Source: Streptomyces sp. NBC_01485
Lineage (GTDB): Bacteria > Actinomycetota > Actinomycetes > Streptomycetales > Streptomycetaceae
Assembly (NCBI RefSeq): GCF_036227125.1
Contig: NZ_CP109435.1
Span: 7,502,001-7,566,000 of the forward strand
Reading direction: 5' to 3'
DNA: 64,000 nt
Numbering within the stretch: position 1 is the stretch's first letter; every line of letters begins with the position of its first letter. The translations under genes were made by a program, and so were the position numbers. Shown here one piece after another: positions 6,564-33,831 of the stretch. The notes below the pieces were generated by a model. That model had not been told where the DNA came from and did not search any database. It saw nothing but the letters and a program-made list of their open reading frames with translations.

Positions 6564-9500
6564 ATGGCGAACGAGGAGAAGCTCCGCTACTTCCTGAAGC
6601 GGGTGACGGCCGACCTGCACGAGACCCGGCAGCGGGTGCGCGAGCTGGAGGAGGGCGGGCAGGAGCCGGTGGCGATCGTCGGCATGGCCTGCCGGTTCCC
6701 GGGCGGGGTCGGGTCGCCGGAACAGCTGTGGGACCTGGTCGCCTCCGGCACGGACGCGCTGGACGGTTTCCCGGACGACCGTGGCTGGGACGTGGAGGCG
6801 CTGTACGACCCGGACCCGGACCACCCCGGGACGTCCTACGTCCGTGAGGGCGGGTTCCTGGAGGGGGCCGGCGACTTCGATCCGGAGTTCTTCGGGATCT
6901 CGCCGCGTGAGGCGCTGGCGATGGACCCGCAGCAGCGGCTGCTGCTGGAGACCGGCTGGGAGGCCGTCGAACGCGCGGGCCTGGACCCGACCACGCTGCG
7001 CGGCTCCCGCACCGGCGTGTTCGTCGGCTCCAACGGCCAGCAGTACACCGTCCAGTTGCTCGGCGACCCGACCGAGGGCATCGAGGGCTACATCGGCACC
7101 GGCAACTCGGCGAGCGTCATGTCCGGCCGTCTGTCGTACGTCCTCGGCCTGGAGGGCCCGGCGGTCACGGTCGACACGGCCTGCTCCTCCTCGCTGGTCG
7201 CCCTGCACCTGGCCGCCCAGGCGCTCCAGCGCGGCGAGTGCACCATGGCGCTCGCGGGCGGCGTCACCGTCATGACGAGCCCCGGCATCTTCATCGACTT
7301 CAGCCGTCAGCGGGGTCTGGCGGCGGACGGCCGTTGCAAGGCCTTCGCGGCGGGGGCGGACGGTACGGGCTGGGGCGAGGGCGTCGGCATGCTCCTGGTG
7401 GAGCGGTTGTCCGACGCCCAGCGGCTGGGGCATCCGGTGCTCGCGGTGGTCCGGGGCTCGGCCGTCAACCAGGACGGCGCCTCGAATGGCCTGACGGCCC
7501 CCAACGGCCCGTCCCAGCGCCGGGTCATCCGGCAGGCCCTGGCCAGCGCGGCCCTGTCGGCCGCCGAGGTCGACGCCGTCGAGGCCCACGGCACGGGGAC
7601 GACCCTGGGCGACCCCATCGAGGCGCGCGCCCTGCTGGCCACCTACGGTCAGGGCCGCGACCCGCAACGCCCCTTGTGGCTGGGGTCGGTGAAGTCCAAC
7701 ATCGGCCACACGCAGGCGGCGGCGGGCGTGGCGGGCATCATCAAGATGGTCATGGCGATGCGCCACGGAGTCCTGCCGCCCACCCTGCACGTGGACGAGC
7801 CCACCCCGCACGTCGACTGGTCGGCGGGCGCGGTCCGGCTCCTGACCGAGACGACGCCCTGGCCGCGGACCGACGCCCCCAGACGTGCGGCGGTCTCCTC
7901 CTTCGGCGTCAGCGGCACCAACGCACACACCATCCTCGAAGCCGCCCCCGAACCAGCTTCCGAACCAGCCCCTGAACCGGCTTCCGCCCCGGCCGACGCG
8001 GGCCCCGCCGAGCTGGCCGAAGACTCCCCCGAGCCTATTGCCGCCGCCGCCCTCGCGCCCTTCGCCGAGGGGGCTGCCGCACCCGTCCCCTGGGTCGTCA
8101 CGGCCCGTACCCCCGAAGGCCTGGCCGCGCAGGCCGACCGGCTCGCCCGGTTCGCCGCCGCCGACGCAGCCGACAACGGAGCGGGCGGGACACCGGTGCC
8201 CGGTCTCCTCGCCGTGGGCCGGGCCCTGGCACGCGGGCGTACGGTCTTCGAGGAGCGTGCCGTCCTGCTCGGCGCGACCGCGTCCGAACTGCGCTCCGCC
8301 GCCGAGGAGTTGGCGGCCGGTGCCGACCAGCTGGGGAGCGTCGCACGAGGGCGGGCCGCGAGGCGCGGCGGTGTTGTCTTCGTCTTTCCCGGGCAGGGTG
8401 CGCAGTGGGCGGGCATGGCCCGCGAACTGCTGGCCACCAGCCCGGTGTTCGCCGCGTCGATCGCCGACTGCGAGACGGCACTGGCACGTCACGTCGACTG
8501 GTCGCTGACCGAGGTGCTCACCGGTGACGGCGCCGAGCTGGGCCGGGTGGACGTGGTCCAGCCGGCGCTGTTCGCGGTCATGGTGTCGCTGGCCGCGCTG
8601 TGGCGGTCGGTGGGCGTGGCGCCCGCCGCCGTGGTCGGGCACTCGCAGGGCGAGATCGCCGCCGCGTACGTGGCGGGCGCGCTGTCGCTCGACGACGCGG
8701 CGCGCGTGGTGGCCCTGCGCTCCCAGGCGATCACCCGCCTGGCGGGCACCGGCGGCATGGCCTCGGTCTCCGCCCCCGTCGAACGGGTCCGGGAGCTGAC
8801 GGCGGACGGTGTCGGCGTCTCGGCCGTCAACGGCCCCCGGTCCGTGGTGGTCTCCGGAGAGGCCGGAGCCCTGGACGCCTTCCTGGCGGACTGCGCGCAG
8901 GCCGGTGTCGAGGCCCGCCGGATAGCCGTCGACTACGCCTCGCACTCCGCGATGGTCGAGGAGCTGGCCGCCGAGATCACCGGCGCCCTCGCCCGCATCA
9001 CCCCGCGGGCCCCCGCCGTGCCCATGCTGTCGACGTACACCGGCGCATGGGTCGAGGGAGCCGAACTGAACGCCCGCTACTGGTACGAGAACCTGCGCCA
9101 CCCGGTGCGGCTGCACGACGCCGTGCGGACTCTGGCCGACGCTGGGCACGCCGTGTTCGTCGAGGTCAGCCCGCATCCCGTGCTGGCGGTGCCGGTGCAG
9201 GAGACCCTGGACGAGGCGGGCGGTGGTGGCACCGCGCTCGGCACCCTGCGCCGTGACCACGGGGGCCCGGCACGGTTCACGGCGTCCGTCGCGGAGGCGT
9301 TCTGCGCCGGTGCGGCCGTGGACTGGCCGGCGCTGCTGCCCGGCGCCCCGGCCGGCCCGGTGGACCTGCCGACGTACGCCTTCCGGCACCGCCGCTTCTG
9401 GCCGTCCGCACCGGCACCGGGCGCGGGCGATCCGACGGGCCTGGGCCTCGCGGGCGTCGACCACGGGCTGCTGGGCGCGGCCATGACCCTGGCCGAGGGC

Positions 9501-12500
9501 GACGGCCTGGTGCTGACCGGCCGTCTCGCGCTGCGCGGCCGGCCGTGGCTGGCGGACCACACCGTGCGGCGGACCGTGCTGCTGCCCGGCACGGCGTTCC
9601 TGGAGTTCGCGCTGCGCGCCGCCGACCAGGCGGGCTGCGACCGGGTCGAGGAACTGACCGTCGAGACCCCGATGCTGCTCCCCGCCACCGGCGGCGTACG
9701 CGTCCAGGTCCGGGTCGGCGCCCCCGACAGCGCCGGCCGCCGACCGCTCGCCGTCCACTCGTGCCCCGACGACGCCGAGGACGACCGGCCCTGGACCCGG
9801 CACGCCACCGGCTTCCTCGCCACCGGCCCCGTCCCCGGCACGGCACGGTCCGGCGAGTCCCTGACCGTCTGGCCGCCGGCCGGCGCCGAGGCCGTCGACA
9901 CCGACGGCTTCTACCCGGCGCTGGCCGAGAGCGGCTACGGCTACGGCCCCGCCTTCCAGGGCCTGCGCCGCGTCTGGCGCCTCGGCGACGAGGTGTACGC
10001 CGACGTGGAACTCCCCGCCGACCAGCGCCGGGAGGCCGCCCGCTACGCCCTGCACCCGGCGCTGCTGGACGCCGCGCTGCACACCATCATGGCCGCCGGC
10101 CTGTTCGCCGACGACCCGCACGGCCAGGGCCGGCTGCCGTTCGCGTTCGCCGACACCGTGCTGCACGCCCAGGGCGCGTCGGTGCTGCGGGTGCGGCTGC
10201 GGCAGACCGCGGCGGACACGGTGTCCCTGGCCGTGGCCGACGCGGCCGGCGCCCCGGTGGCGACCGTGGGCGCGCTCGTCCTGCGCCCGATGGCCGAAGG
10301 GACCCTCACCGCCGACGACATCCCGGGCGGCGGCGCGGGCGACGTGCTGTACGCCGTCGAGTGGACCCCCGTAGCCGTACCGGAGACCTTGGAAGCCGAT
10401 CCGGAGCAGTCCTGGGCCCTCGTCGGCGAACTCCCGGTGCAGGCATGGGAACCGTTGGCCGCCGCAGGGGTCACCCTCGCCGCGCACCCGGACCTGTCCG
10501 CCGTATCCGCCGCAACCGTCGTGTCCGCTGTGGGCGACGGCCCCGCGCCGCCCGCGCCGCCCGTGGTGCTGCTGGACCTGCGCGCCCACGGCGCCGCCCC
10601 GGACCGCGCCCGTGAACTGACCGCCGGCGTCCTGCACACCGTCCAGCAGTGGCTCGCCGACGCCCGCTTCGACGCCTCCTGCCTGGTCGTCCTCACCTGC
10701 GGCGCGGTGCCCGCCGTGGCCGGCGAGGCGGTCACCGACCTGCCCGCCGCCGCCGTCTGGGGCCTGGTCCGCTCCGCCCAGTCGGAGCATCCGGGCCGTT
10801 TCCTGCTGGTGGACACCGACGGCGACCCCCGCTCCTGGTCCGCCCTGCCCGCCGCGCTCGCCGCCGACGAAACCCAACTGGTCCTGCGCGCAGGGACCGT
10901 GACCGTGCCCCGGCTCGTCCGGCTGCCGCCGCCCGCCGCCGGCTCCCCGGCGCCCTGGGATCCCGCCGGCACCGCCCTGCTCGTCGGCGGCACCGGTGTG
11001 CTGGGCCGCCTGACCGCCCGTCACCTGGTCACCGCACACGGCGTACGGCACCTGGTGCTGGCCTCCCGGCAGGGCCCCGCCGCCCCGGGCGCGGACGCGC
11101 TCGCCGCCGAACTGACCGAGCTGGGCGCCGAGGTCACCGTGGCCGCCTGTGACGCCGCCGACCGCGACGACCTGGCCCGGCTGCTGGCAGCCGTCCCCGC
11201 CGACCGGCCGCTGCGGGCCGTGCTGCACCTGGCGGGGGCCCTCGACGACGGCACCATCGGCACCCTGGACGCCCGGCGGCTGGACACCGTCCTGCGGCCC
11301 AAGGCCGACGCCGCCTGGAACCTCCACGACCTCACCCGCGCGCTCGACCTGACCGCGTTCGTGCTGTTCTCCTCGCTCACCGGCGTGGTCGGCACCCCGG
11401 GCCAGGCCGGATACGCGGCCGGCAACACCTACCTGGACGCCCTGGCAGCCCTCCGCCGGGCCGCCGGGCTGCCCGGCACCTCGCTCGCCTGGGGCTTCTG
11501 GGCCTCGGCCAGCGGTATGACCGGCCACCTCAGCGACACCGACCGGCGCCGCATGGCCCGCGGCGGCGTGCTGCCGCTCGACGACGAGCGCGGCATGCGG
11601 CTGCTCGACGCCGCCTGCGCCGCCGGCCGCGCACCGTCGGTCGTGCCCGTGCTGCTGGACCTGCCCGCGCTGCGCGCCCAGGCCGCCGCCACCGGACTGG
11701 CCCCGCTGTGGCGGACCCTGGTGCCGGTACGGGTGCGGCGTACCGCGGCGGCCGTCGGCGCCCCGGCCGACGCCGGCGCCGCCTGGGCCGCCCGGCTGGC
11801 CGCCCTGACCGAGGCCGAACGCGACCGCGAACTGACCGCCCTGGTCCGGGACCGGGCCGCCGCCGTGCTGGGACACGCCTCACCCGACGCGGTCGGCGCG
11901 GCCCGGACCTTCAAGGACCTCGGCTTCGACTCGCTGACCGCCGTCGACCTGCGCAACCGGCTGGCCGCCGCCACCGGCATCCGCCTGCCGGTCACCCTGG
12001 TCTTCGACCACCCCACGCCCAGCGCCCTGGCCACCCGCCTCGCCACGGAACTCCTCGGCGCCGCCTCGGCCGCCTCCCCCACGGCCGCACCGGTTTCCCG
12101 CAGCAGCGCCGAGCCGATCGCCATCGTCGCCATGGCCTGCCGCTACCCCGGCGGCGTCGCCAGTCCCGAACAGCTGTGGGACCTGGTGGCCGGCGAGACC
12201 GACGCGGTCGGCGACCTGCCCGGGGACCGGGGCTGGGACCTGGAGGCGCTCTACGATCCCGAGCCCGGACGGGCGGGCCGCAGCTACGCGCGCCACGGAG
12301 CCTTCCTGCACGACGCCGCCGAGTTCGACGCGGGCTTCTTCGGCATCTCGCCCCGCGAGGCGCTGGCGATGGACCCGCAGCAGCGGCTGCTCCTCGAGAC
12401 CTCGTGGGAGGCGTTCGAACGCGCGGGCATCGACCCGCAGTCGGTGCGCGGCAGCAGCACGGGTGTCTTCGCCGGGCTGATGTACCACGACTACGCCTCC

Positions 12501-15500
12501 CGGCTGCGCTCGGTGCCCGAGGGCGTCGACGGCTTCCTCGGCACCGGCGGCTCGGCGAGCGTCGCCTCCGGCCGCGTCGCCTACGCCCTCGGCCTCGAGG
12601 GCCCGGCGGTCACCGTCGACACCGCGTGCTCCTCGTCGCTGGTGGCCCTGCACCTGGCCGCGCAGGCGCTGCGCTCCGGAGAGTGCGCGATGGCCCTGGC
12701 GGGCGGTGTCACGGTGCTGTCCACGCCGGGGGTGTTCATCGACTTCAGCCGCCAGCGCGGCATGGCCGCCGACGGCCGCTGCAAGCCGTTCGCCGCCGCG
12801 GCCGACGGCACGGGCTGGGGCGAGGGCGCGGGCATGCTGCTGCTGGAACGGCTCAGCGACGCCCGGCGGCTCGGTCACCCCGTGCTCGCCGTCGTCCGTG
12901 GCTCGGCCGTCAACCAGGACGGCGCGAGCAACGGTCTCACCGCACCCAACGGCCCCGCCCAGCAGCGCGTCATCCGGCAGGCCCTGGCCGCCGCCCGGCT
13001 CGGCCCCGACCAGGTCGACCTGGTCGAGGCCCACGGCACCGGCACCACGCTGGGCGACCCGATCGAGGCCCAGGCCCTGCTGGCCGTCTACGGTCAGGGG
13101 CGCCCCGAGGACCGGCCGCTGCTGCTCGGCTCGGTCAAGTCGAACATCGGCCACACCCAGGCCGCGGCGGGAGTCGCGGGCGTGATCAAGACCGTCATGG
13201 CGCTGCGGCACGGCATCGCCCCGCGCACCCTGCACGTCGACGAACCGTCCCCGCACATCGACTGGACGGCCGGCGCCGTGGAACTGCTGACCCGGTCCGT
13301 GTCCTGGCCGCACACCGGCCGCCCGCGCCGGGCCGCCGTCTCCTCGTTCGGCGTCAGCGGCACCAACGCGCACGTCCTGCTGGAGCAGCCGGCCGCCGCC
13401 CCCGACCGGCGGCCGCCCGCCGACGCGCGACAGCCGTCGGTGCCGCTGCTGCTGTCGGCCCGCAGCGCGGCGGCGCTGCGCGCCCAGGCCGGCCGGCTCG
13501 CCGACCGCCTGGAGACCGGCGGTGACCGGCTGGCCGACATCGCCTACTCGCTGGCCACCTCCCGGGCCGCCCTGGAGCACCGCGCCGCCCTGGTCGGCGA
13601 CGACCCCACGGCGCTGACCGGGGCGCTGCGGGCCCTCGCCGGGGACGAGATCGCCCCGGGGACGGTCACCGGCCACCCCGACGACGACGACGGCGGCACG
13701 GCCTTCCTCTTCTCCGGCCAGGGCAGCCAACGCGCGGGCGCCGGGCGGCAGTTGTACGCCGACCAGCCGGTGTTCCGGCAGGCGCTCGACGAGACGTGCG
13801 CGGCGTTCGAGGGACTGCTCGACCGTCCGCTGCGCGAGGTGCTGTTCGCCGAGCACGGCACACCCGAGGCGGAGCTGATCGACGACACCGGCTTCACCCA
13901 GCCCGCGCTGTTCGCCCTGGAAGTCGCGCTGTACCGGCTGCTGGAGTCCTGGGGCGTGACGCCGGACGCCCTGGCCGGGCACTCCATCGGCGAACTGACC
14001 GCCGCCCACCTGGCCGGCGTCTGGTCGCTGCCGGACGCCGCCGCCCTGGTGGCCGCCCGCGCCCGCCTCATGCGCGCGCTGCCGCCCGGCGGGGCGATGC
14101 TGGCCGTCGAGGAGACCGAGGACGCCGTCCGCAAGACGCTCCAGGAGTACGGCGAACGGGTCGCCGTCGCCGCCGTCAACGGCCCCCGGGCGGTGGTGGT
14201 CTCCGGTGTGGCGGAAGCCGTCGGGGAGTTGGAAGCGCTCTGGCGTGAACAGGGTCTGAGGGTCAAGCAGTTGACGGTCAGTCACGCTTTCCACTCGCCG
14301 CTGATGGACCCGATGCTGGCCGAGTTCCGCGCGGTGGCCGAGGGCCTGACCTACAGCGAGCCCCGGCTGCCGCTTGTCTCCTGCCTCACCGGCCGGTTCG
14401 CCGAGCCCGGCACGGTCACCAGCCCCGACTACTGGACCCGGCACGTCCGGGAGGCCGTACGGTTCGGCGACGGCCTGACCGCGCTGGCGGAGCGCGGCAT
14501 CCGCGTGCTGGTGGAGATCGGCCCGGACGCGGTCCTGTCCGCCATGGCGTCCGGCGCCGCGTCGGGCGGCCCCGGCTCCGCCGCCCCCGTCGCACTGCCG
14601 CTGCTGCGCGCCGACCGCCCCGACCGCCAGGCGCTGGCCGCAGCGCTGGCCGCGCTCTTCGCCCACGGGGTCCCGGTCGACTGGGCCGCGTGCTTCGACG
14701 GCACCGGCGCGACCCGCGTCGACCTGCCGACGTACGCCTTCCAGCGCACCCACTACTGGCTGCACGACGCCCCGCCCCCGGCCGCGCCGGACGCCGCCCT
14801 GTGGACGGCGATCGAGAACCAGGACGTCGAGGAGCTGTCCCGCGTCCTCGGCGACGGCTCCGGTTCCCTGGCCGAGGCGCTGCGGCCCGCGCTGCCGGTC
14901 CTTGCGCCCTTCGTCCGGCGCACCCGCGAACAGCTCACGGGCGGCGGCCCGGCCGCCGGACCGCCGCCCGAGGCTCCGGCCGCGCCAGAACCGGAACCCG
15001 AGCCGGGCGGGCTGCGCCGCCGGCTCGCCGAGCTCCCGGAGGAGGCCAGGCACGGCCACCTCCTGGGGGCCGTACGGGCCATGGCGGCCGATGTCCTCGG
15101 CCACCCCTCGGCGGACGTCCTGGAGAACGGCCGGGACTTCCTGGACCAGGGCTTCGCCTCCCTCACCGGTGTCGAACTGCGCACCCGCCTGGCCGCCGCC
15201 GCCGGGCTGGACCTGCCCGCAGCCCTGATCTACGACTTCCCCTCCCCGGCCGATGTCGTCGCCCACCTGCTGGAACTCCTGGACCAGCACCAGGACGAGG
15301 ACCAGGCCCAGCACCAGGCCCAGCACCAGCACCAGCACCAGGCCCAGGCCCAGGCCCAGGACGAGGCGGCGGCCGGCGGCGCTCCCGTGGCCGTCCCCGA
15401 GACCGTTCCCTCGCCTCCCCCGCCTCGCCGGGCGGACGGCGTGTTCGGACCGCTGCTGGTCCGGGCGTCCGAGGAGGGCCGGACCGCCGAACTGCTGCAC

Positions 15501-16139
15501 ACCCTCGGCTCGGCAGTCGCCTTCGACCCGCGCTGGACCGGCCGCCACACCCCCGCCGCCCCGGCGCGGCCCGTACACCTCGCCCACGGCCCCGAGCAGC
15601 CCGCCCTGCTGTGCTTCGGACCGCTGACCGCGATGTCCGGGCCCATGCGGTACGCAGCCTTCGGCGCCGCGTTCGACGGGGTGCGGGACGTACTGCTGCT
15701 GCCGGCCCCCGGGTTCGGGCCCGGCGAGAGCCTGCCGCCCTCGTTCGAGGAGCTGGTGCGCCGGCTCGCCGAAGCGGTGGCGGACCTGGCGCGGGACCGG
15801 CCGGTCGTGCTGGCCGGACACGGCTCCGCCGCCGTGTCGGCCGCCGAGACCGCCCGGCTGCTCGCGGAGTCCGGGCGCGCCCCGGCCGGGCTGGTGCTGA
15901 TCGACGCCCCCGAGCCGGGCGCCGACCCGGCCGCCACGCTGGCCGCCGAACTCGCCGACGGCCTGGCGGAGGGCGACCCGCAGGTCCTGGAGGACGGGCG
16001 GCTGCTGGCCACCGGCGGCTACCTCCGGCTGCTGCCCGTCCGGCAGTTCACCGAGCCGCCGGTCCTCCCCACGCTGCTGGCCGGCCCCGGTCGGCCCGTC
16101 GACCCGGCGGCCGTCCACGACTGGTGCACCGACCTGTGA
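6564..16139 (+). CDS. Type I modular polyketide synthase: KS-AT-DH-KR-ACP-KS-AT-ACP-TE(degenerate)
   Basis: 3191 residues; ATG at 6564 follows GAGGTG at 6549-6554. An N-terminal docking helix ([18 protein letters not shown]) is followed by KS1 (Cys codon 7182-7184), AT1 (GHSQG, Ser codon 8643-8645; YASH at 8934-8945, predicting methylmalonyl-CoA), a DH (His codon 9558-9560 and Asp codon 10068-10070 present, but the conserved Gly of HxxxGxxxxP is Arg), a B-type KR ([11 protein letters not shown], Ser-Tyr-Asn set) and ACP1 (Ser codon 11931-11933). The second module has KS2 (Cys codon 12627-12629), AT2 (GHSIG; HAFH at 14283-14294, malonyl) and an ACP reading GFASL rather than GFDSL; it has no KR, so it would leave a beta-keto group. 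A Gln/His-rich linker leads to a thioesterase domain that has GHGSA in place of GHSxG and stops before the usual catalytic His. Probably the last PKS of the line; release must be explained another way if the TE is inactive. Confidence 0.95.
15284..15366 (+). repeat. In-frame CAG-rich hexamer repeat in the ACP-TE linker
   Basis: Alternating CAGCAC and CAGGCC units encode a Gln/His/Ala run (QHQ, QAQ pattern). It joins the last ACP to the TE of the PKS. Such a tract is prone to strand slippage in multiples of six bases, which would keep the frame. Confidence 0.85.
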
Positions 16140-16257: not shown

Positions 16258-17046
16258 GTGACGACGCACACCTCCTCCGACACCAGCCTGTGGGTGCGCC
16301 GATACCACCCGGCGCCCGACAGCCCGGTCCGCCTGGTCTGCTTCCCGCACGCCGGGGGATCGGCGAGCTACTTCAACCCGGTGTCCGCCGCTCTCTCCCC
16401 GGCCGTCGAGGTCGCCGCCATCCAGTACCCCGGACGGCAGGACCGCCGGACCGACCCGTGCGTCGGCGACCTCGGCGAGCTGGCCGCCCTGGTCTGGGAG
16501 CAGTTGAGGCAGGTGCTGGCCGAGCGGCCCGGGGTGCCGACCGCGCTGTTCGGACACAGCATGGGCTCCATCGTCGCGTTCGAGGTGGCCCGGCTGATGG
16601 AACGCGAGCCCGGCACCGGCCCCCTGGTGCTGTTCGCCTCCGGCCGCCGCGCGCCCAGCATCCCGCACGACGACAACGTCAGCAGCCGCGACGAGGCGGG
16701 CATCGTCGCCGAGATGCGGGCCCTGGGCGGCACCGACTCACGGGTGCTGTCCGATCCGGAACTGCTGGAGATGGTGCTGCCCGCGCTGCGCAACGACTAC
16801 CGGGCCGTCGAGAACTACTGCAGCGACGCCGGCACCCGGATCTCCGCGCCGGTGTCCGTGCTGGTCGGCGACACCGACCCGCGCACCTCCATGGAGCAGG
16901 TGCAGGCCTGGAGCGGGCACACCAGCGGCCCCATGGAGATCCACACCTACCCCGGCGGCCACTTCTACCTGGAGCACAACCAGGCGGCGGTGCTGGGCAC
17001 CATCCGCGACACCCTCGCCAAGCACGGCATACGGGTCGCCTCCTGA
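16258..17046 (+). CDS. Discrete type II thioesterase
   Basis: 262 residues when started at GTG 16258, which follows AGAGG at about 16242-16246; an upstream in-frame ATG at 16192 has no good ribosome binding site. Alpha/beta hydrolase of the editing type found beside PKS and NRPS genes: LVCFPHAGGSASYF near the N-terminus, nucleophile in GHSMG, catalytic His in GGHFYLEHN near the C-terminus. Such enzymes free carrier domains from aberrant or stalled acyl groups. Unlike the TE fused to the upstream PKS, this one has all its catalytic residues, so it could also contribute to chain release. The 118-bp gap upstream contains diverged repeats around ccgtattccgtagcccgt. Confidence 0.93.
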   Translation: MTTHTSSDTSLWVRRYHPAPDSPVRLVCFPHAGGSASYFNPVSAALSPAVEVAAIQYPGRQDRRTDPCVGDLGELAALVWEQLRQVLAERPGVPTALFGHSMGSIVAFEVARLMEREPGTGPLVLFASGRRAPSIPHDDNVSSRDEAGIVAEMRALGGTDSRVLSDPELLEMVLPALRNDYRAVENYCSDAGTRISAPVSVLVGDTDPRTSMEQVQAWSGHTSGPMEIHTYPGGHFYLEHNQAAVLGTIRDTLAKHGIRVAS

Positions 17047-17144: not shown

Positions 17145-19028
17145 TCAGCCGTCGGCACCGCCGGAGCCGCCGGCGTCCAGCACCTCGGCCAGGGCGCGGA
17201 CCGACGGGGCGTCGAACACCTGGGCCATCGCGATGTCGACCGCGAACTCCCGCTCCACCAACTGGCAGAGCTGGGCCGCGTACAGCGAGTTGCCGCCCAG
17301 CAGGAAGAACGACGTGTCGCGCGGCACCTGTTCCAGCCCCAGCACCTCGCCGAACACCGCCGCGAGCCGTGTCTCCGTGCCGTCCCGCGGCGCCGTGCCG
17401 GCCGCCGCCTCCTGTGCGCGCAGCCGCTCGGCCAACTCGGCCAGCGCGTGGCCGTCCACCTTGCGGTCCTCCAGCACGGGCAGGGCCGCCAGCCGGTGGA
17501 CGCGGGCGGGCAGCAGATACCCCGGCAGCCGCTCGGCGAGCACGGCCCGCACGTGTTCCGGCTCCGGCTCCGTGAGCGCCGCCGCGTCGTCCGCCGTGCC
17601 GGTCGCCGTCGCCACGTAGAACAGGCACAGGTCCTCGCACGCGCCGTCCGGCCCGTGCAGCGGGACCACCCGGCAACTGCCGACCCCGGGCACCAGCCGG
17701 GCGGTGCGCTCGACGTCGTCCAGCTCCACGCGGTAGCCGCGCATCTTGACCTGGCGGTCGGCGCGGCCGTCGAAGTGCAGCAGGCCGTCGGCCGACCGGT
17801 GGCCCAGGTCTCCGGTGCGGTAGACCGTCAGCAGGGCGCCGTCGGGGCCGACCGGGACCTTGACGAACTTCTGGGCCGTCAGCTCCGGGTCACCCAGGTA
17901 GCCCAGGGCCAGGCCCGCGCCGGACAGGCAGATCTCGCCGGTCTCGCCGACCGCGCAGGGCTCGTCGCCGTCCAGGACGTACGCGGCGGTGTTGCCGTAC
18001 GGGCGGCCGAGCGGGACGCCGGCCGTGTCCTGGCAGTCCGCGAGGGTGACGATGTGCCCGGTGGCGGCGATCGTGCACTCCACCGGCCCGTACATGTTGT
18101 GCAGCGGGATGTCCGGATGCCGTTCCACGAAGCGGCGGGCGTGCACCGGCGACAGCCGTTCGCCGCCGGTGCCGACCACGCGCAGGCCGGTGAAGGCGTC
18201 CAGGTCGGTGTCGATCACCATGTGCAGGACGGCCGTCGGCAGGAACACCGTGTCCACGCTCTGCTGGGCGATCAACTCCCGCAGCCGTCGGGCCAGTTCG
18301 ACGGTGTCGGAGAGAACCAGCACCGTTCCGCCGCCCAGCAGCACCGCCCAGGAGTCCAGCCCGAAGGCGTCCCAGGTGGCCGCCAGCGACTGCGGCATCA
18401 CCGCCCGGCCGCCCACCGGCGCGAACGCCCACTCGTCGAAGAGGCGCACATTGCCGCGGTGCGCGGTCAGCACCCCCTTGGGCGTGCCGGTGGTGCCCGA
18501 GGTGAAGAACACGGCGCTCGCGTCGTCGCCCCGCACGGTCACCTCCGGCGCCCGCCGCCCGCCGGCCGCCAGAGCGGCGAAGTCCGCCTGTCCGACCCGC
18601 CAGACGGGCACCGGCCAGGACGCGTCCTCGGCCACGGCCATCAGCGGCGCCGCCAGCCTTTCCAGCAGCGCCCCGATCCGCTCCTTCGGCCACCGCGGAT
18701 CGAGCGCCGCGTACGCGGCCCCGCGCCGGACCACCGCGAGCAGGACCGCCAGCAGCTCCGCCGACCGGGGCATCAGCACCGGCACCAGATCGCCGGGACC
18801 GACGCCCCGTTCGGCCAGTTCAGCGGCGAAGTCGTGGGATGCCGCGGCGAGTTCGGCGTAACTGACCCGGCGCGGGCCGTCCACGACGGCGGTCGCGTCG
18901 GGATAGCGGCGCACACACCAGTCGAACAGCTCGTGCATGGTCTCGCCCCGGACCGGGGGCCCGGGGAGTGGGTTCCAGGCAGGGTCGGGCAGGGGCGCGC
19001 CGGGCGTCACCGTCACCGGGCCGCTCAT
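17145..19028 (-). CDS. NRPS adenylation-PCP didomain protein
   Basis: 627 residues; ATG at 19028 overlaps the stop of the upstream NRPS gene (ATGA), so the two are translationally coupled. The adenylation domain keeps its core motifs: FFTSGTTGTPKGV (A3), MYGPVECT (A5), YRTGDLG (A7), GRADRQVKMRGYRVE (A8) and a Lys in RKVDG (A10). A PCP follows with LLGGNS (4'-phosphopantetheine Ser near 17290). No condensation or thioesterase domain. By eye the binding-pocket positions equivalent to 235, 236, 239, 299 and 301 of GrsA read D, A, L, H, M: the Asp for the amino group suggests an alpha-amino acid, but I do not recognise the code. It probably loads its own PCP or the PCP of the neighbouring protein, whose A domain is degenerate. 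Confidence 0.92.
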   Translation of the reverse strand: MSGPVTVTPGAPLPDPAWNPLPGPPVRGETMHELFDWCVRRYPDATAVVDGPRRVSYAELAAASHDFAAELAERGVGPGDLVPVLMPRSAELLAVLLAVVRRGAAYAALDPRWPKERIGALLERLAAPLMAVAEDASWPVPVWRVGQADFAALAAGGRRAPEVTVRGDDASAVFFTSGTTGTPKGVLTAHRGNVRLFDEWAFAPVGGRAVMPQSLAATWDAFGLDSWAVLLGGGTVLVLSDTVELARRLRELIAQQSVDTVFLPTAVLHMVIDTDLDAFTGLRVVGTGGERLSPVHARRFVERHPDIPLHNMYGPVECTIAATGHIVTLADCQDTAGVPLGRPYGNTAAYVLDGDEPCAVGETGEICLSGAGLALGYLGDPELTAQKFVKVPVGPDGALLTVYRTGDLGHRSADGLLHFDGRADRQVKMRGYRVELDDVERTARLVPGVGSCRVVPLHGPDGACEDLCLFYVATATGTADDAAALTEPEPEHVRAVLAERLPGYLLPARVHRLAALPVLEDRKVDGHALAELAERLRAQEAAAGTAPRDGTETRLAAVFGEVLGLEQVPRDTSFFLLGGNSLYAAQLCQLVEREFAVDIAMAQVFDAPSVRALAEVLDAGGSGGADG

Positions 19029-21985
19029 GATCCGGCCGCCAGGGTGGACATGCGCACGGCCAGGCCCGCCGGGGTCGGGTTCTCGAAGACGTCGGCCAGG
19101 CGGAGCCGGATGCCGGTGTCCTCCTCCAACTGCTGCACCAACTGCGCGGCGAGCAGCGAATGGCCGCCGCTGCCGAAGAAGTTGGCGCTCGGGCCCAGGT
19201 CCTGACGGCCGGTCAGGGTGTTCCACAGGTCCACCAGCCGTGGCGTCCAGTCGCCGTCGGCCGGCGCCGTGCGAGCCGCCGCTGCCTCGGTCGCCAGCGC
19301 GGTGGCCGCCGCGAGGTCCACCGTGCCGTCGGCGGCCGTCGGCAGCGCGTCGGTCACCATCACGAACGACGGGACGGCGGCGCGCGGCAGCCGGAGCGCC
19401 GCGTGTTCGCGTACCGCCTCGGGGCTCGGCGGCTCGTCCGGGCCGGGTGCCGGGCGGACCAGGGCCACCAGCGCGGGCTCGTCGCCGGGTGTCTGCACCA
19501 ACGCGGCCTGGGCGACCGCCGGGTGCTCGCACAGGACACTCTCGGCGCGCTCGGGTTCGACCCAGCCGCCGAGCCGGTAAAGGCGGCGCGCGGTGGCGCC
19601 CAGCACCTCGACCGTGCCGTCGGCGGTCCACCGGCCCAGCAGACCGGTGTCCACCGCGTCGCGCCCGCTCCGGGACACCCGCAGCTCACCGGTCACGCCG
19701 AGAGGCAGTTCACGTCCGCCGGGCCCGGTGACGTAGACCCGTACACCCGGCGCGGGACGCACCTCGTCCAGCCGTCGGCCGTCCGGATCCACCGGCGTCG
19801 CCGCGCCCCACACACCGCTGTCGTCCACGCGCAGCAGGTACGGACGGGCCCCGAGGGCGGTCAGCCGGCGCGCCAGACCCGCCGGCGGCGGTTCGGTCAG
19901 CAGGGCGGGCCGGGTCACCGGGCCGCCTCGGGCCAGCAGATCCCACCAGGTGGCGGGCGCGGCCCGCAGCGCGGCATGGGGGTGCCGCTCCAGCAGGTCG
20001 TCCAGAGTGCCGTCGTACCCGGTGGCGACGATCACCCGTCCGCCGGTGGCCAGTGGCAGCCACATCTCCACCACCGCCGCGGGGTCTTCGGGCGCGCCCT
20101 GCCAGACGGCGTCCACGGGGCCGCCTGCCTGAGCCTCCAGCCCGCGGGCCGCGTCCGCCAGCAGCGCGCCGAGATCGGCGTGGCTGACCACACCGTCCGT
20201 GCGCCGCCAGGCCGCAGCGGCGGGGTCGTACCCGTCTTCACCGTCACCAGTACCGGCGTCGGCACCGTCGTTCATGTCCGGGACCGGCCCGGCCGGTGTC
20301 AGGCGCATGCCGTCCGGCAGGACCAGCGCGGCGTCGCCGTCGCCCGCCTGGGTGGCGCCGCAGGCCGCGCCCGCGAGCCACACGCCCAGGACCGCCGTCA
20401 GCCCGGCCGACCCCGCCACCGCCGACACGCCCACGGTGTCGCCGGGGGCGACCCCGTGCTCACGCAGCACGGCGGCCGTGGCCCGGGCGGCGCGCCACAG
20501 CGCCGCGTACGTCACGGTCCGGCCGTCCTCCTCGACGGCCACCGCGTCCGGGGTGGCCGTGGCCCGGGCGGCGACGATCGCGGGCAAGGTGCGTGGGGTT
20601 CCGTGCTGGCGAGGGGCGTGCGCGCCGTCCACGGTCGCTTGGTCGGTTGCGCACCACGCGGTGATGTCGGCGAGCCGCCGGCCGGGATCCCGGCCCAGTT
20701 CGGCGAGCAGCGCGTCGTAGCGGTGCAGCAGCAGGTCCACGTCCTGCGCGGTGTGCGCGACCGTGGAGTACACGGCCTTGACCTCGTAGCTGCCGGGCAC
20801 CGGCGAGATCACGAACTCCAGGTCGAACTTGCTGCTGCCGGTCTCCACGACGTCCAGCCTGCCCGGCAGTCCGCCGACCAGGATCTCGCGGTTGTCGCGC
20901 CCCGGCAGGTAGTTGAAGATGTGCCGGAACAGCGAGGAGCGCCATGAGGAGTCCAGCCGGGGCGCGTCGGGCACCAGGACGTCCACGGGCGCGTCGGCAT
21001 GGCCGACCGCCTCCAGGAAGATGTCACGGGTGGCGCGGACGAACTCGCGGAAACCGAGTTCGTCGTCCACGTGGTTGCGCAGCGGCAGGATGTTGACGTG
21101 GTAGCCGATGGTCCGCTCGGTGCGCGGGCCACGGATGTTGACCGGCAGGCCCACCGCGAAGTCGGGACCGGCGCCGTGCCGCGCCAGCAGCAGGTAGTAC
21201 GCGGCGAGCAGCACCACCGCGTCCGGCGCCCGCAGTTGCCGCTGGCAGTCGTGCAGCACCGCCGCCGACTCCGCCGACAGCACATGGCTGCGCGTCGCCC
21301 CGGCCAGCGAGTCGCCGTCCACAGGACGGTCCCCGACGCGCAGTTGGGCGCCGTACGGGTCGATGCCCTCCAGGTGCCGCTGCCAGAACTTCAGGCTCGC
21401 CTCGGCGGGCTCGGGCTCCACCCAGGCGGGCACGACCTCGACCGGCGCCGCGGACAGGTCGTGGCCGTCCGCCGCGATGCCGTAGGCGGCGGCCAGCTCC
21501 TCCAGGAAGATCGAGCTCGACATGGAGTCGAAGACCAGGTGATGCACCGCCAGGCACAGCACATCGCCCTCCGGTGCCTCGAAGTGCCCCACGCGCAGCA
21601 GCGGACCGCCGTCCAGCACGAACGGCCCGAGCACGAACTCGGTCATCGAGGACCGCAGTTCGTCCTCGTGGCCGACGGTGCGGCGCTCCACCGGCAGCGT
21701 CGCGTCAGCGGCCGGCAGCAGTTCCTTGACGAGCTGTCCCGCCTCGACGCGGAAGACGGTGCGCAGCGTTTCGTGGCGGCGCGCCATCGCCTGTACCGCG
21801 TCGCCGAGCACCTGTCCGTCCAGCCGCCCCGCGACCCGGACGGCCGCACCGGGCACGTTGTTGACGCTGCCCTCGGGCACCAGGCGCTCCAGCAGCCACA
21901 GTGCCTCCTCCTTGCGGCTGACCGGCCGCGGCGCCCCCCGGGGCCGGCCGTGGTCAGCCGTGACAGTGCTCTCAGACGATCCCAT
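19025..21985 (-). CDS. NRPS condensation - degenerate adenylation - PCP protein
   Basis: 986 residues from ATG 21985, preceded by AAAGAG. The N-terminal about 430 residues are a condensation domain with an intact HHxxxD motif (HHLVFD, near 21528-21549). The following region aligns in layout with an adenylation domain but has lost the signatures: no SGTTGxPKG (only WRRTDGVVSHADL), no YGPTE, no YRTGD, RLYRLGGWVE where A8 should be, and ADGTVD without the A10 Lys. The PCP at the C-terminus is normal (GSGGHSLLAAQ, Ser near 19158). So the protein can be primed and can condense, but should not activate an amino acid itself; the coupled A-PCP protein downstream is the obvious partner. Acceptor and donor substrates are unknown. 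Downstream of the P450 in the same direction. Confidence 0.9.
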   Translation of the reverse strand: MGSSESTVTADHGRPRGAPRPVSRKEEALWLLERLVPEGSVNNVPGAAVRVAGRLDGQVLGDAVQAMARRHETLRTVFRVEAGQLVKELLPAADATLPVERRTVGHEDELRSSMTEFVLGPFVLDGGPLLRVGHFEAPEGDVLCLAVHHLVFDSMSSSIFLEELAAAYGIAADGHDLSAAPVEVVPAWVEPEPAEASLKFWQRHLEGIDPYGAQLRVGDRPVDGDSLAGATRSHVLSAESAAVLHDCQRQLRAPDAVVLLAAYYLLLARHGAGPDFAVGLPVNIRGPRTERTIGYHVNILPLRNHVDDELGFREFVRATRDIFLEAVGHADAPVDVLVPDAPRLDSSWRSSLFRHIFNYLPGRDNREILVGGLPGRLDVVETGSSKFDLEFVISPVPGSYEVKAVYSTVAHTAQDVDLLLHRYDALLAELGRDPGRRLADITAWCATDQATVDGAHAPRQHGTPRTLPAIVAARATATPDAVAVEEDGRTVTYAALWRAARATAAVLREHGVAPGDTVGVSAVAGSAGLTAVLGVWLAGAACGATQAGDGDAALVLPDGMRLTPAGPVPDMNDGADAGTGDGEDGYDPAAAAWRRTDGVVSHADLGALLADAARGLEAQAGGPVDAVWQGAPEDPAAVVEMWLPLATGGRVIVATGYDGTLDDLLERHPHAALRAAPATWWDLLARGGPVTRPALLTEPPPAGLARRLTALGARPYLLRVDDSGVWGAATPVDPDGRRLDEVRPAPGVRVYVTGPGGRELPLGVTGELRVSRSGRDAVDTGLLGRWTADGTVEVLGATARRLYRLGGWVEPERAESVLCEHPAVAQAALVQTPGDEPALVALVRPAPGPDEPPSPEAVREHAALRLPRAAVPSFVMVTDALPTAADGTVDLAAATALATEAAAARTAPADGDWTPRLVDLWNTLTGRQDLGPSANFFGSGGHSLLAAQLVQQLEEDTGIRLRLADVFENPTPAGLAVRMSTLAAGS

Positions 21986-22051
21986 GCGCTGCGCTCTTTC
22001 GTGCTCGGGGCCAGGGCGGCTTCGTGCTCGGGGCCAGGCGGCCTGCGGCGT

Positions 22052-22089
22052 CCGTGATGCTGCGTGCCGGGCGGTACGCAGCATCACGG
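22052..22089 (-). terminator. Hairpin between P450 and NRPS genes
   Basis: A perfect 14-bp stem (22052-22065 with 22076-22089) and a 10-base loop, just after the P450 stop on the transcribed minus strand. No T-run follows, so it is more likely a partial terminator or mRNA-stabilising element than a full stop. Between it and the NRPS start, tcgtgctcggggccagg occurs twice. Confidence 0.6.
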
Positions 22090-22105: not shown

Positions 22106-23344
22106 TCAGCCCGCGGCGACCGGGAACTGCCGCAGTCCCCGGGCCGATGCCGACATCCAGCGCTCCTCCGGACCGGTCTGCCGCAGGTCCGGCAGCCGGG
22201 CCGCCAGCGCCCGGAACGCGGCGGCGGCCTCCATACGGGCCAGCGGCGCTCCCAGGCAGTAGTGCGGACCGCCGGAGAACGACAGGTGCTCGGTCTTGGT
22301 GTTGCGGGTGATGTCGAAGCGGTCGGGGTCGGGGAAGACCTCCGGGTCCCGGTTGGCGGCGCCCAGCAGAACCGCCACCAGCGACCCGGCGGGCAGGGTG
22401 TGCCCGGCCAGCTCCACGTCCTCGTGGGCGACCCGGGTCGCCAGTTGCGCGGGGGAGTCCCAGCGCAGCGTCTCCTCCACCACGCCCGAGGCCAGCTCGG
22501 GGTCCGCGCGCAGCATGTCCCACTGCTCGGGGTGGTTCAGCAGCGCCATCGTGCCGTTGGCCACCAGGTTGGTGGTGGTCTCCGTACCCGCCACGGCGAG
22601 GATGCCGCAGATCCCGATGGCCTCGCTCGTGGTCAGCACGCCCTCGCGTTCGGCCGCGACGAGCCGGCTGATCACATCGTCGCCCGGCTCCTTGGCGCGC
22701 AGCTCCATCAGGTCGGCGAACACCTCGTACAGGCCGTCGACGGTGAGCTGCAGCTCCCCGAGGTGCTCGGGCGAGACGAACCCCTCCAGCACCTGCGCCG
22801 CCCCGTGGCAGCAGTGGTCGAACTTCTCGCGGTACTCGTCGGGAATTCCCAGCAGACCCCGGATGAGGGCGATGGGAAGATGCTTGGAGAAATCCTTCAC
22901 GAGGTCGAATCCGGAAACCGGATCGAGCCGGTCGAGCAGTTCCGCGCAGACCTCTTCCACATGCGGACGGTACGTTCCCATGTGACGCGGGCTGAACAGG
23001 GGAATGGCCAGCCGGCGCATCCGGGTGTGGTCCGGCGGATCCAGCTTGAGGAACGAATCGTCCAGCGAGGAGAACTGCGGCGCCACTCGTTCCCCGGCGA
23101 CCGTACGCGTGCCGAAACGGCCGTCGCGCAGAATCCGGTTGCCCAGCGCATGGTCGGCGGTGACCCACGTGTCCACCCGGCTCAGGTGCAGCGGACCGCG
23201 CTTCCGGACCTCTTCGTACAGAGGATAGGGATTCGCCTGCCCACGCAGCAGCAGGGCGTAGGGATCCCCCAGCGCGCCCATGCTCCATATGAACCGCGAG
23301 CTCTGTAGGTAGCTTTCCATTTCTTTTTCGGTCGGGACCGGCAT
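22106..23344 (-). CDS. Cytochrome P450
   Basis: 412 residues; ATG 23344 has GAGGAG five bases upstream. Bacterial class I P450: I-helix oxygen-binding AGTETTTN, K-helix ExxR (EETLR), and heme-ligand loop FSGGPHYCLGAPLAR with the Cys codon near 22257. No membrane anchor; electrons would have to come from a ferredoxin and reductase encoded elsewhere, as none is in this window. First gene of the minus-strand operon ahead of the two NRPS genes, and divergent from the histidine kinase, so it is probably a tailoring hydroxylase or epoxidase of the cluster product. Substrate unknown. Confidence 0.95.
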   Translation of the reverse strand: MPVPTEKEMESYLQSSRFIWSMGALGDPYALLLRGQANPYPLYEEVRKRGPLHLSRVDTWVTADHALGNRILRDGRFGTRTVAGERVAPQFSSLDDSFLKLDPPDHTRMRRLAIPLFSPRHMGTYRPHVEEVCAELLDRLDPVSGFDLVKDFSKHLPIALIRGLLGIPDEYREKFDHCCHGAAQVLEGFVSPEHLGELQLTVDGLYEVFADLMELRAKEPGDDVISRLVAAEREGVLTTSEAIGICGILAVAGTETTTNLVANGTMALLNHPEQWDMLRADPELASGVVEETLRWDSPAQLATRVAHEDVELAGHTLPAGSLVAVLLGAANRDPEVFPDPDRFDITRNTKTEHLSFSGGPHYCLGAPLARMEAAAAFRALAARLPDLRQTGPEERWMSASARGLRQFPVAAG

Positions 23345-23378: not shown

Positions 23379-23391
23379 ATACGTGTCGTAT
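23379..23391. promoter_or_regulatory. Inverted repeat in the P450 / kinase divergent promoter
   Basis: ATACG-tgt-CGTAT lies between the divergent P450 and kinase genes, overlapping TATGCT (23390-23395), a plausible -10 for the kinase side. Candidate operator; the binding protein is unknown, the neighbouring response regulator being the first suspect. Confidence 0.4.
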
Positions 23392-23509
23392 GCTAGCGAC
23401 GCGCTGCGCGGGAGAAACCCCCTACCGTGCCCTGAAGCCCCCTAGCGGCACCCCCGATCGGCGTGCCGGACGGCCCTATGACGCCTGCTTGCAATTGACG
23501 GGAGTGGAA

Positions 23510-24577
23510 GTGTCAAGACCTGGGAAAAACTGGGGAGGCCCGAGCAGCTCGCGGGCCGTGGAGACCGCCCGGTGGGAGATTCTGGGCGCCTGTGAGGCCG
23601 AGCTCCAGGGTATGCTCGCGCCGGGCGAACCCGCCCTGATGTCCTGGCTGTTGGGGCAGGCGGACCAGATGGTCACCGAAGTGGTGGACAGCCTCAGGGC
23701 CGGCGAACCGAAACTGCGGTCCGCGTCGCAGGGGGTCTTCGACGGCCTGACGGACCCCCCGGCGCTCGAGGATTTCATTCAGGCGTCCTCCGCGTGCTGC
23801 TGTTCTGTTCTTCAGTCGATTTTACGGCTGGCGGAGCTGGACAAGGAGTTGAACAGCGATATTCGGCTGGTGGTCAGAGTTCTGGAGGAAAGCCGCAGTC
23901 GCCGTCTTCGGGAACTGACGGAAAGGCTGCGGACACTCCTGATGGAGTGGACCCTGCGCGCCCAGGAGAGCGAGCGGACAAGGATATCGCGGGAACTCCA
24001 CGACCGTATCGGATACGGGCTTTCGGTCGCCTATCGTAATTTGGAGCTGTTTCATCTGCACCGCGATTCCGATATCGCCGTGGCGACGGTGAAGGCGGAG
24101 GCCGCCCAGAAGGCCGTACGCGATTCCATGGACCAGTTGCGCATGATCAGTGCGGATCTGCGCGGAAACGACCGGCGGGGCAGTCTGAAAAAGGCTCTGC
24201 TGCACTCGCTGGAAGACCTGGAGAGCGAAGGCGTCTCCGTGCAGGTGCACGTGGAGGGTGACGAGTCGGCGGTGCCCGTCGGCATTCTTGACGAAGTCTT
24301 TCTCATTCTTCGCGAAGCGCTGCTCAACGCCCTCCGGCACGGGCGGCCCCGACGGCTGCGGATAAAGGTGGACATCTCCGCCGACGAGGTCCGCGCCATG
24401 GTCGACGACGACGGCCGGGGATTCGACAGGGAACCCCTTCCGTCCGCGAAGAGCATCGGGCTGATGGCGATGGCCGAACGCGCCCGGCTGCTGTCCGGGT
24501 CCGTCGTGATCCGCAGCCAGGTCGGCACCGGAACCCACGTCACCCTGGCCGTACCCCTGAGGGAGGAGGTGCGGTGA
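23510..24577 (+). CDS. Cytoplasmic sensor histidine kinase (HisKA_3 / NarX-DesK type)
   Basis: 355 residues from GTG 23510, which has GGGAG five bases before it; a longer in-frame start at 23390 lies in the presumed promoter. The N-terminal about 145 residues have no transmembrane segment and contain three consecutive Cys (codons 23795-23803). The dimerisation helix carries the phospho-acceptor His (ERTRISRELHDRIG, His codon 23999-24001). The ATPase domain shows EALLNALRHG (N box), DDDGRGFD and GIG-type SIGLMAMAERA. Stop overlaps the start of the response regulator by GTGA. A TTA codon at 23822-23824 makes translation depend on the bldA leucyl-tRNA in Streptomyces. It probably controls the adjoining biosynthetic genes; the signal is unknown. 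Confidence 0.92.
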   Translation: MSRPGKNWGGPSSSRAVETARWEILGACEAELQGMLAPGEPALMSWLLGQADQMVTEVVDSLRAGEPKLRSASQGVFDGLTDPPALEDFIQASSACCCSVLQSILRLAELDKELNSDIRLVVRVLEESRSRRLRELTERLRTLLMEWTLRAQESERTRISRELHDRIGYGLSVAYRNLELFHLHRDSDIAVATVKAEAAQKAVRDSMDQLRMISADLRGNDRRGSLKKALLHSLEDLESEGVSVQVHVEGDESAVPVGILDEVFLILREALLNALRHGRPRRLRIKVDISADEVRAMVDDDGRGFDREPLPSAKSIGLMAMAERARLLSGSVVIRSQVGTGTHVTLAVPLREEVR

Positions 24578-25245
24578 CGACGCCCGGCGCACCGATCAGC
24601 GTGGTCCTGGTGGACGACCACACCCTGTTCCGCGACGGCATCCGCGAGATCCTCGGGTTCTACCCGGACCTCACCGTCGTCGGCGAGGCCGCCACCAGCC
24701 AGGCGGCGATCGAGCAGATCCGCGAGCACCGCCCCGCCATCGTGCTGCTGGACATCGAACTGCCCGGCGGCGAGCCGCAGGACACCGTGACCCGGATGCG
24801 GGAGCTCTCCCCGGCCACCCGGATCATCGTGCTGAGCATGTACGACCGGCCGCAGATGGTGCGACGCCTCACCGAGGCGGGGGTCCGCGGATACCTGCTC
24901 AAGACCGCCGACCGCGAGGAACTGGTCGGCGCCGTCCGCCGCGTGCACGCGCACGCCGACTGCGTGGTGCTCGGCATCTCCGCCCAGTCGGCCGCCACGC
25001 TGAACGACCGGGCCGAGAACCCCTTGTCCCCGCGCGAGAGCGAGGTCCTGGAAATGGTCGCCCAAGCCCTCAGCAACAGCCAGATCGCCGGCCGGCTCGA
25101 CCTGTCCGAGGCCACCGTCAAGCGCCATCTGCGCAACGTCTTCGCCAAGCTCGGCGCGGTGTCCCGGATCGACGCCGTCAACAAGGCGGTCGGCGCGGCC
25201 CTGATCTCCCCCTCGCACCGCTCGGAGAACGTTCCGTTCGCATGA
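24574..25245 (+). CDS. NarL/FixJ-family response regulator
   Basis: 223 residues, GTG start overlapping the kinase stop by four bases, so co-translated. Receiver domain with acidic pocket VDDH, phospho-acceptor Asp in LLDIELPGG (codon 24751-24753), Ser of VLSMYD and Lys of LLKTA. C-terminal LuxR-type helix-turn-helix: LSPRESEVLEMVAQALSNSQIA and SEATVKRHLRNVFAKLG. Together with the kinase it forms the two-component switch at the border of the cluster; targets probably include the divergent P450-NRPS operon. Confidence 0.95.
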   Translation: MTTPGAPISVVLVDDHTLFRDGIREILGFYPDLTVVGEAATSQAAIEQIREHRPAIVLLDIELPGGEPQDTVTRMRELSPATRIIVLSMYDRPQMVRRLTEAGVRGYLLKTADREELVGAVRRVHAHADCVVLGISAQSAATLNDRAENPLSPRESEVLEMVAQALSNSQIAGRLDLSEATVKRHLRNVFAKLGAVSRIDAVNKAVGAALISPSHRSENVPFA

Positions 25246-25424: not shown

Positions 25425-26912
25425 TCAGGGTGCGATGTCCCACTGCTGGCAGCTGTTGTCGAGCTGCTGCCACTGGCGGACCACTGTCCCGTTGGCGGTT
25501 CCGCAGTCCTTCACGTCTACCGCTATGCCGCTGTTGACGTTGGTGATGGTGTAGTGGCTGCCGACAGGGGTGACGTCCCACTCCTGGCAGAGATTGCCCA
25601 GCGCGGCCCACAGGTTCAGGGCTGTGCCGTTGTTCTGTCCGCAGTTCACGGAGTCGAGAACGGTGCCGCTGTTGACGTTGGTGATGGTGTAGTGACCGTT
25701 GCCCGCGCTGGTGAACTTCCACTGCTGGCAGGTGTTGCCGAGCGAGGACCACTGGTCGATCGCGGTTCCGTTGGCTGTCCCGCAGTTCACCGCGTCGAGG
25801 ACCTTGCCGCTGTTGACGTTGGTCAGGCGGTAGGCGGTGCCGGCGACGGGGAAGGTGACGGCCGGGGTCGTGTAGCCGACGGAGGTGATGTTGGCCTGCA
25901 CGGCGTTGTCGGCGGCGTTGGTCGGGTAGCCGGAGGTCATGACGCCTTCGAAGAAGGAGCCGTCGGAGCCGTTGCTGTCGTCACCGCCGGTGCCGAGGAC
26001 GATGGCGCCCTCCAGGTGCATGGGGGTGTACCCGCCCAGGTTGGGAAGGGCACCGTCGTACCAGGTGGTCAGTGAGCCCGACTGCGCGTTGCCGCCCTTG
26101 ATCGCGTAGGTCGTCGTGCCGTTGTTCTTCTCCATGGCGGTGACGTACTCACTGGAGATGCCGGTGTTGGGCGAGTGGGGGCCGTTCGCTCCGAAGAACA
26201 GTCCGTTCTCCAGGTCCGCCTCGACCCAGGGGCCGGATCCGGAACACGTGAACCAGCACTCCGTGCCGAAGTTGATCGCGTCCATGTGGCCGTTGCCGGT
26301 GTCGAGGCCGGACGTCTCGGCGTTGCCGTAGTCGAAGCAGCACCGGTTGTTCACGTGGTGGCCGCTGGTCACCATGTAGGCACCCTCCGGGGCGCTGCCC
26401 GTGGCGATTCCGGTGGTGCTGTTGTTGCGGTAGCCGACGCCGGCGGACACGAAGATGCCGTATGCCTTGTGGCCGCCGACCGTGACCGGCAGGGCGTTCG
26501 CGATCGCGCCGACATCCTGTCCGCCGTTGCCGCCGGGCCCTTCGATGGTCAGGTCGTTGTGGTTCGAGCTCTGGTCGTAGATCTTGGTGATGATGCAGGT
26601 CGTGCCGGAACAGAAGGAGTCCTGCGCCGCGGCGTTGGCGTAGCCGCCGGCGGTGAGCAGGCCGATGTTGGCGGTCGCGGCGTCCGAGGCGCGCTTGACC
26701 TGGTAGAGAGAGCCGTTGTAGGAGGCGTAGAGCGCCCGTGTGGTGCTGTGAGCTGCGGCGCACGGCGTTCCGGCGGAGGCGTAGATGTCGCACGGCAGGG
26801 ACGAAGCGGCCTGGGCCGTGCCCGCGGTTCCGACCACCCCGGCCAGGAGGCCGGCGAGCAGGGTGAGGACCGCGCCTGCTGACAGCAGGAGCCCTCTCAG
26901 GTGTCGACGCAT
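25425..26912 (-). CDS. Secreted GH54 alpha-L-arabinofuranosidase with C-terminal ricin-type (CBM13-like) module
   Basis: 495 residues from ATG 26912 with GAAGAGG upstream. A Sec signal peptide (MRRHLRGLLLSAG..., ending near AQA-A) precedes a catalytic domain closely resembling fungal AbfB enzymes of family GH54: DIYASAGTPCAAAHSTTRA, the vicinal Cys pair in CCFDYGNAE, the nucleophile Glu in EADLENGLF and the acid/base Asp in GGDDSNGSDGSFFEGV. It should release arabinofuranose from arabinoxylan, arabinan or arabinogalactan outside the cell. The C-terminal about 130 residues have three repeats with TNVNSG and QQW/QEW signatures, a ricin B-type trefoil carbohydrate binder in place of the CBM42 of fungal GH54 enzymes. 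Preceded by an 18-bp palindrome that the neighbouring LacI protein probably binds. Confidence 0.92.
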   Translation of the reverse strand: MRRHLRGLLLSAGAVLTLLAGLLAGVVGTAGTAQAASSLPCDIYASAGTPCAAAHSTTRALYASYNGSLYQVKRASDAATANIGLLTAGGYANAAAQDSFCSGTTCIITKIYDQSSNHNDLTIEGPGGNGGQDVGAIANALPVTVGGHKAYGIFVSAGVGYRNNSTTGIATGSAPEGAYMVTSGHHVNNRCCFDYGNAETSGLDTGNGHMDAINFGTECWFTCSGSGPWVEADLENGLFFGANGPHSPNTGISSEYVTAMEKNNGTTTYAIKGGNAQSGSLTTWYDGALPNLGGYTPMHLEGAIVLGTGGDDSNGSDGSFFEGVMTSGYPTNAADNAVQANITSVGYTTPAVTFPVAGTAYRLTNVNSGKVLDAVNCGTANGTAIDQWSSLGNTCQQWKFTSAGNGHYTITNVNSGTVLDSVNCGQNNGTALNLWAALGNLCQEWDVTPVGSHYTITNVNSGIAVDVKDCGTANGTVVRQWQQLDNSCQQWDIAP

Positions 26913-26990
26913 CACTGTGAACCTCTTCCGTCTTGCGTTCTTCTGGGGCCCGGCGCCGCGTGCGCAGGGAGAAGGGGGGGAGGGTTGTGC

Positions 26991-27012
26991 GGTACGCGGT
27001 GATACGCGTACC
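26991..27012 (-). promoter_or_regulatory. Inverted repeat in the arabinofuranosidase leader
   Basis: GGTACGCG-gtgata-CGCGTACC, eight perfect base pairs, about 80 bases upstream of the start codon. It could be a second operator or a leader hairpin. Confidence 0.4.
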
Positions 27013-27075
27013 GAGGAGCTGCCGCCGGGAGACGGATTCGGCGCTCGGCGCGGCCTCGGCATCTCTCAGCAGGCG

Positions 27076-27093
27076 ATTGTTAGCGCTAACAAT
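27076..27093. promoter_or_regulatory. Perfect 18-bp LacI-type operator upstream of the arabinofuranosidase
   Basis: ATTGTTAGCGCTAACAAT is a perfect palindrome with the central AGCGCT typical of operators of LacI-family regulators. It is about 165 bases upstream of the GH54 start codon. A partial copy sits before the lacI gene at 27502-27519. Confidence 0.8.
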
Positions 27094-28626: not shown

Positions 28627-28785
28627 TCGGCGTGCCGACCACACGCCGCCACTTCGGCAGGATCCGGAGCCGGGACGTAGGGCGGTTCCGTCGATCCGGG
28701 CGCTGGATACCCCGGCGAGCTGTCGTGGGCGAGGCCATGGCGCGCGGGCCGGTGACCCAGTAGCATCGGCAGAATATCGAACGAA

Positions 28786-28801: not shown

Positions 28802-28823
28802 AATCCGTGAGGGAGGGCTGGCT

Positions 28824-30503: not shown

Positions 30504-30505
30504 GC

Positions 30506-33830: not shown

Positions 33831-33831
33831 G

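Follow-up and report, generated by a model that had tools for sequence, protein, structure and literature searches.

Genetic work on bripiodionen has defined how a tetramate can be released from an assembly line: the A domain of BpdC was found by mutation to be silent, both T domains were needed, the thioesterase (TE)-like protein BpdE with its Cys-Asp-His triad was shown, also by mutation, to close the tetramate, and the type II TE bpd1 was dispensable, its deletion having no effect (PMC10956176). Aflastatin A is known as a giant linear tetramate, in which a polyol/polypropionate chain is carried on a tetramic acid (PMC10094535). The gene cluster of aflastatin A or blasticidin A was not found in the literature searched. 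Assembly lines commonly contain silent KR, DH and A domains; nothing relevant was found in the literature searched on a dead, truncated TE behind the last ACP, or on inactive TE domains of polyketide synthases (PKSs).

The stretch of DNA analysed here (the window) comprises 64,000 nucleotides of Streptomyces sp. NBC_01485 (NZ_CP109435.1, positions 7,502,001 to 7,566,000) and includes the end of a series of ten collinear PKS genes (genome positions 7340058 to 7518139), which encode a KSQ loading module and 30 extension modules. According to Pfam domains and a motif scan, the last PKS gene (6564 to 16139 of the window, forward strand) encodes KS-AT-DH-psiKR-KR-ACP followed by KS-AT-ACP and a pseudo-TE, the terminal ACP bearing the motif GFASL. 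The last extension module consists of KS, AT and ACP only, and with the KR absent it would leave a beta-ketoacyl chain, as tetramate release requires. We consider it likely that the TE is the dead relic of a chain-releasing TE, on a giant PKS that now uses tetramate-type release instead.

The thioesterase domain behind the last ACP

The pseudo-TE (15438 to 16136, forward strand) was assigned to the DEBS/Pik TE family by PF00975, phmmer and alignment, and it is cut off before the His segment. Its PF00975 match is above the cut-off and covers only model positions 3-110 of 226. Searches with phmmer matched it to the DEBS TE (PDB 1kez, E=2.8e-22, residues 57-242), to PDB 9cel (E=2.7e-23) and to the module-7 and FluC TEs. 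In the TE tree, the remnant has a long branch (1.27) and no resolved sister, and its AlphaFold2 model, made from an input alignment of two rows only, has a pLDDT of 36.6.

The first-pass annotation of this DNA had described GHGSA in place of GHSxG, with loss of the elbow Gly, and this was borne out by the alignment and by the in-frame codons at 15816-15830 (forward strand), which read GGA CAC GGC TCC GCC. It had also taken the Ser to be shifted by one, a point that the alignment corrects: GHGSAA of the window falls on GHSSGG or GYSSGG of the relatives, so that the nucleophile Ser is substituted by Gly and the elbow GlyGly by AlaAla, and the Ser that remains occupies the 'x' position of a normal elbow. 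Ser142 and His259 of the DEBS TE are 117 residues apart. The predicted end of the protein about 100 residues after the Ser, with loss of the catalytic His, was confirmed, as the stop codon (16137-16139) lies 104 residues past the nucleophile position. The C-terminus reads VHDWCTDL, and in intact TEs this 'DW' precedes G[DN]HF by about 20-25 residues; downstream of the stop, none of the three forward frames contains a G[DNT]H segment. The catalytic Asp, said to be still there in LVLIDAPEP, is present in the window (15903-15905, forward strand) and replaced by Asn in the orthologue described below, so that this statement holds for one of the two species.

Among 199 relatives searched, a single orthologue of the last PKS was found, in Streptomyces sp. 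yr375 (G062, NZ_FOFF01000061; 89% identical), and a scan of 84,980 species genomes yielded no further close relative. The yr375 TE, which supplies the homologous GHGSA domain that the annotation had proposed to look for, has the identical motif and stop position and reads LVLINAPEP. Since two species share the lesions, these are genuine, and a sequencing error or frameshift whose correction would restore the motif and the C-terminus is ruled out; GC3 remains at 0.95 right up to the stop of the last PKS, and the lack of a downstream His segment in the forward frames points the same way. Ser or Cys, Asp and His are kept in 22 of 22 other TE domains and are missing only in the window TE and its yr375 orthologue. 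Because the nucleophile and the His segment are gone and the orthologue lacks the Asp too, the alignments support the earlier view that the domain would be unable to release the chain in the normal way, and the remnant is probably catalytically dead.

Partner genes and the terminal ACP

Directly downstream of the last PKS gene, a discrete type II TE is encoded (16258 to 17046, forward strand; PF00975 E=1.5e-51) with intact GHSMG and GGHF motifs and a presumed start codon in a reading frame that is open from 16192. The reverse strand encodes an A-T protein (17145 to 19028; motifs FTSGTTGTPK, YRTGD, RKVD and GGNS), a C-A*-T protein (19025 to 22087, start codon provisional) and a cytochrome P450 of the cluster (22106 to 23344). 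TSGTTGxPKG and the A10 Lys are both found in the A-T protein and are missing from the A domain of the C-A*-T protein, which is predicted from its motifs to be silent. The T domain of the latter protein carries GGHS, and its C domain (HHLVFDS), in which the HHxxxD motif is intact, would accept the polyketide. A histidine kinase and a LuxR-type response regulator (23390-25245) adjoin the P450 and are possibly regulators of the cluster. Beside the cluster (25425-42816) lie genes for an arabinofuranosidase, a LacI regulator, a sugar kinase, an L-arabinose isomerase, an aldolase and ABC sugar transport.

The interval between the second and third PKS genes, upstream of the window, carries genes for a P450, for two TE-like proteins, each about 270 residues long, and for a transporter-like pair. 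As the second PKS, which precedes the genes of the TE-like proteins, ends in a docking-like region without a TE, those genes belong within the assembly line, at a distance of about 140 kb from the NRPS genes. One of the two proteins (DC1) matched NcmC (PDB 6e6t) with E=6.9e-40 and with Cys, Asp and His in register, and the other (DC2) has an intact Cys-Asp-His by alignment to DC1 and by its own sequence; both are predicted to be NcmC-type Dieckmann cyclases. Strain yr375 carries DC1 and DC2, which are about 90% and 94% conserved, respectively. The region also holds a 2.65-kb direct repeat with 96% identity (genome positions 7363015-7365659 and 7368579-7371215); each copy contains a 519-aa membrane/transporter-like ORF, and one cyclase gene stands just ahead of each copy.

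Relatives were compared through plasmid records for the C-A*-T protein and through a genome search with DC1. An NcmC-type cyclase adjoins the relative of the C-A*-T protein in all four plasmid-borne loci examined (L045-L048), and the DC1 search found cyclases in 14 of 199 genomes, our own genome counted. In three of the genomes (G064, G013 and G101), a C domain belonging to the same family (43-47% identity) is encoded no more than about 4 kb from the cyclase, and a terminal PKS module stops right after the ACP, without a TE. A type II TE of the window's class stands beside the related clusters of G064, G013 and G090 (44-49% identity). A second cluster in G101 (C1, ~6758000-6774500, L076) has a C-A*-T protein devoid of A-domain motifs, with separate A domains close by; the split NRPS layout thus recurs.

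The terminal ACP of the window (15009 to 15248, forward strand) was delimited by motif scan and carries FLDQGFASL at 15138-15164; it is the sole exception among the 29 ACPs found in the assembly line, the other 28 having DS[LM]. DSL is present in 15 of 18 ACPs that precede intact TEs and served as a control; since the other three lack the Asp as well, its loss alone is not diagnostic, and the motif change is suggestive. Stronger evidence comes from a tree of 71 ACPs (86 columns, bootstrap not settled), in which the terminal ACPs of the window and yr375 join, with support of 98/97, those of G064, G013 and G101, whose motifs are GFNSL, GFSSL and GFTSL; the next row outside this group is a terminal ACP still followed by an intact TE. 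The window ACP would thus group with the terminal ACPs of PKSs that hand over to an NRPS. Between the ACP and the pseudo-TE lies a low-complexity linker (15284 to 15437, forward strand) that is mostly absent in yr375. Within it, seven copies of a twelve-base tandem repeat (15284-15367) code for QHQHQAQAQ, and this repeat is largely absent from yr375.

Route of chain release

Three routes had been left to the chain by the first-pass annotation, namely passage to the condensation domain of the NRPS, release by the discrete TE or a new mechanism, and the first is the one favoured by the evidence. From the gene content, the domain motifs, the shared lesions and the class of the terminal ACP, all of which are observed, we infer the following route and product, together with the relic status of the TE, as most likely. 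The last module (KS-AT-ACP, no KR) would make a beta-ketoacyl-S-ACP, and an amino acid activated by the separate A-T protein would be passed to the T domain of the C-A*-T protein. The C domain would then join the beta-ketoacyl chain to the aminoacyl-T, and one of the two NcmC-type Dieckmann cyclases would take the chain on its Cys and convert it into a 3-acyltetramic acid. Hand-over to the C domain followed by Dieckmann release would leave the TE without work. A new release mechanism is not needed, since the predicted Dieckmann cyclases of the same cluster supply known chemistry.

An improbable alternative is that the pseudo-TE has been kept for a non-catalytic job, such as assisting the terminal ACP in docking to the C-A*-T protein or to a Dieckmann cyclase, or capping the PKS end. 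Selection on the domain is weak but detectable: pairwise codon analysis of the window against yr375 gave an omega of 0.18 with GY94 (likelihood ratio 28.9 against omega=1) and of 0.53 with NG86 (binomial p 0.04), two methods so far apart at this GC content that we rely only on the relative order of the domains. As omega is below 1 by both, neutral decay is unsupported, and since the remnant evolves below neutrality, some non-catalytic use is possible; the frame is intact as well, and the domain sequence has been kept while the linker has not. However, by GY94 the remnant ranks with the silent A domain (0.188) and well above KS (0.02), AT (0.03-0.06) and C (0.09), and in related PKSs that hand over to a C domain of this kind nothing follows the ACP. 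Such an omega might be expected of a domain that needs only to fold or stay soluble, and a minor structural role would also be compatible with it. We regard it as unlikely that the dead TE now acts as an adaptor which guides the chain, of roughly 60 carbons, from the last ACP to the split NRPS or to one of the Dieckmann cyclases, and prefer to see in it a relic.

It is far less probable that the discrete TE (16258-17046) hydrolyses the chain free. Its motifs are intact and its gene lies next to that of the last PKS, but it looks like an intact TE of the type II class that also stands beside the related clusters, its counterpart bpd1 is dispensable (PMC10956176), and the C-A*-T module and the Dieckmann cyclases would have no role. 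That the fused TE still works by unusual chemistry, for example with the Ser of GHGSA as nucleophile and another base, is hardly credible in spite of this Ser and of the Asp in the window species, because the alignment rules out the 'x' residue as a shifted nucleophile, the elbow would then have His and Ala in place of its small flanking residues, the protein lacks the His segment and the Asp is Asn in yr375.

Comparison with known systems

If the domain is indeed a relic, it would record how a PKS exchanged TE release for NRPS/Dieckmann chemistry. The terminal ACP class GF[A/N/S/T]SL, which forms one clade, might be a sequence mark of those PKS termini from which the chain goes to a condensation domain, and such a mark would be useful for product prediction and for the engineering of tetramate ends. 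For genome-mining tools, the locus advises caution against calling macrolactone or acid release for this cluster.

With the TEs of DEBS and PikAIV (PF00975, PDB 1kez and 2h7x) the window domain shares homology over about 185-220 residues (E ~1e-20 to 1e-22) and its place after the last ACP; unlike these, it lacks the nucleophile Ser, the elbow Gly and the C-terminal His segment, and one of the two species has lost the Asp as well. A C domain combined with a discrete Cys-Asp-His Dieckmann cyclase is common to the NcmC/TrdC-type clusters (nocamycin, tirandamycin, vancoresmycin), whereas the related PKS ends examined stop after the ACP or a docking region and a TE relic is found only in the window cluster and in yr375.

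The bripiodionen system shares with the window cluster the silent A domain in a C-A*-T protein (BpdC), the separate A-T protein (BpdD), the NcmC-type cyclase (BpdE), the terminal KS-AT-ACP and the type II TE (PMC10956176). The window cluster differs in its 30 extension modules, its two cyclase genes and the dead TE that follows the terminal ACP, BpdB being described as ending in the ACP. As predicted from the genes alone, the product would be of the same type as aflastatin A and blasticidin A, with a long polyol/polypropionate chain and a tetramic acid end (PMC10094535), and giant linear tetramates such as aflastatin A may be its nearest known counterparts.
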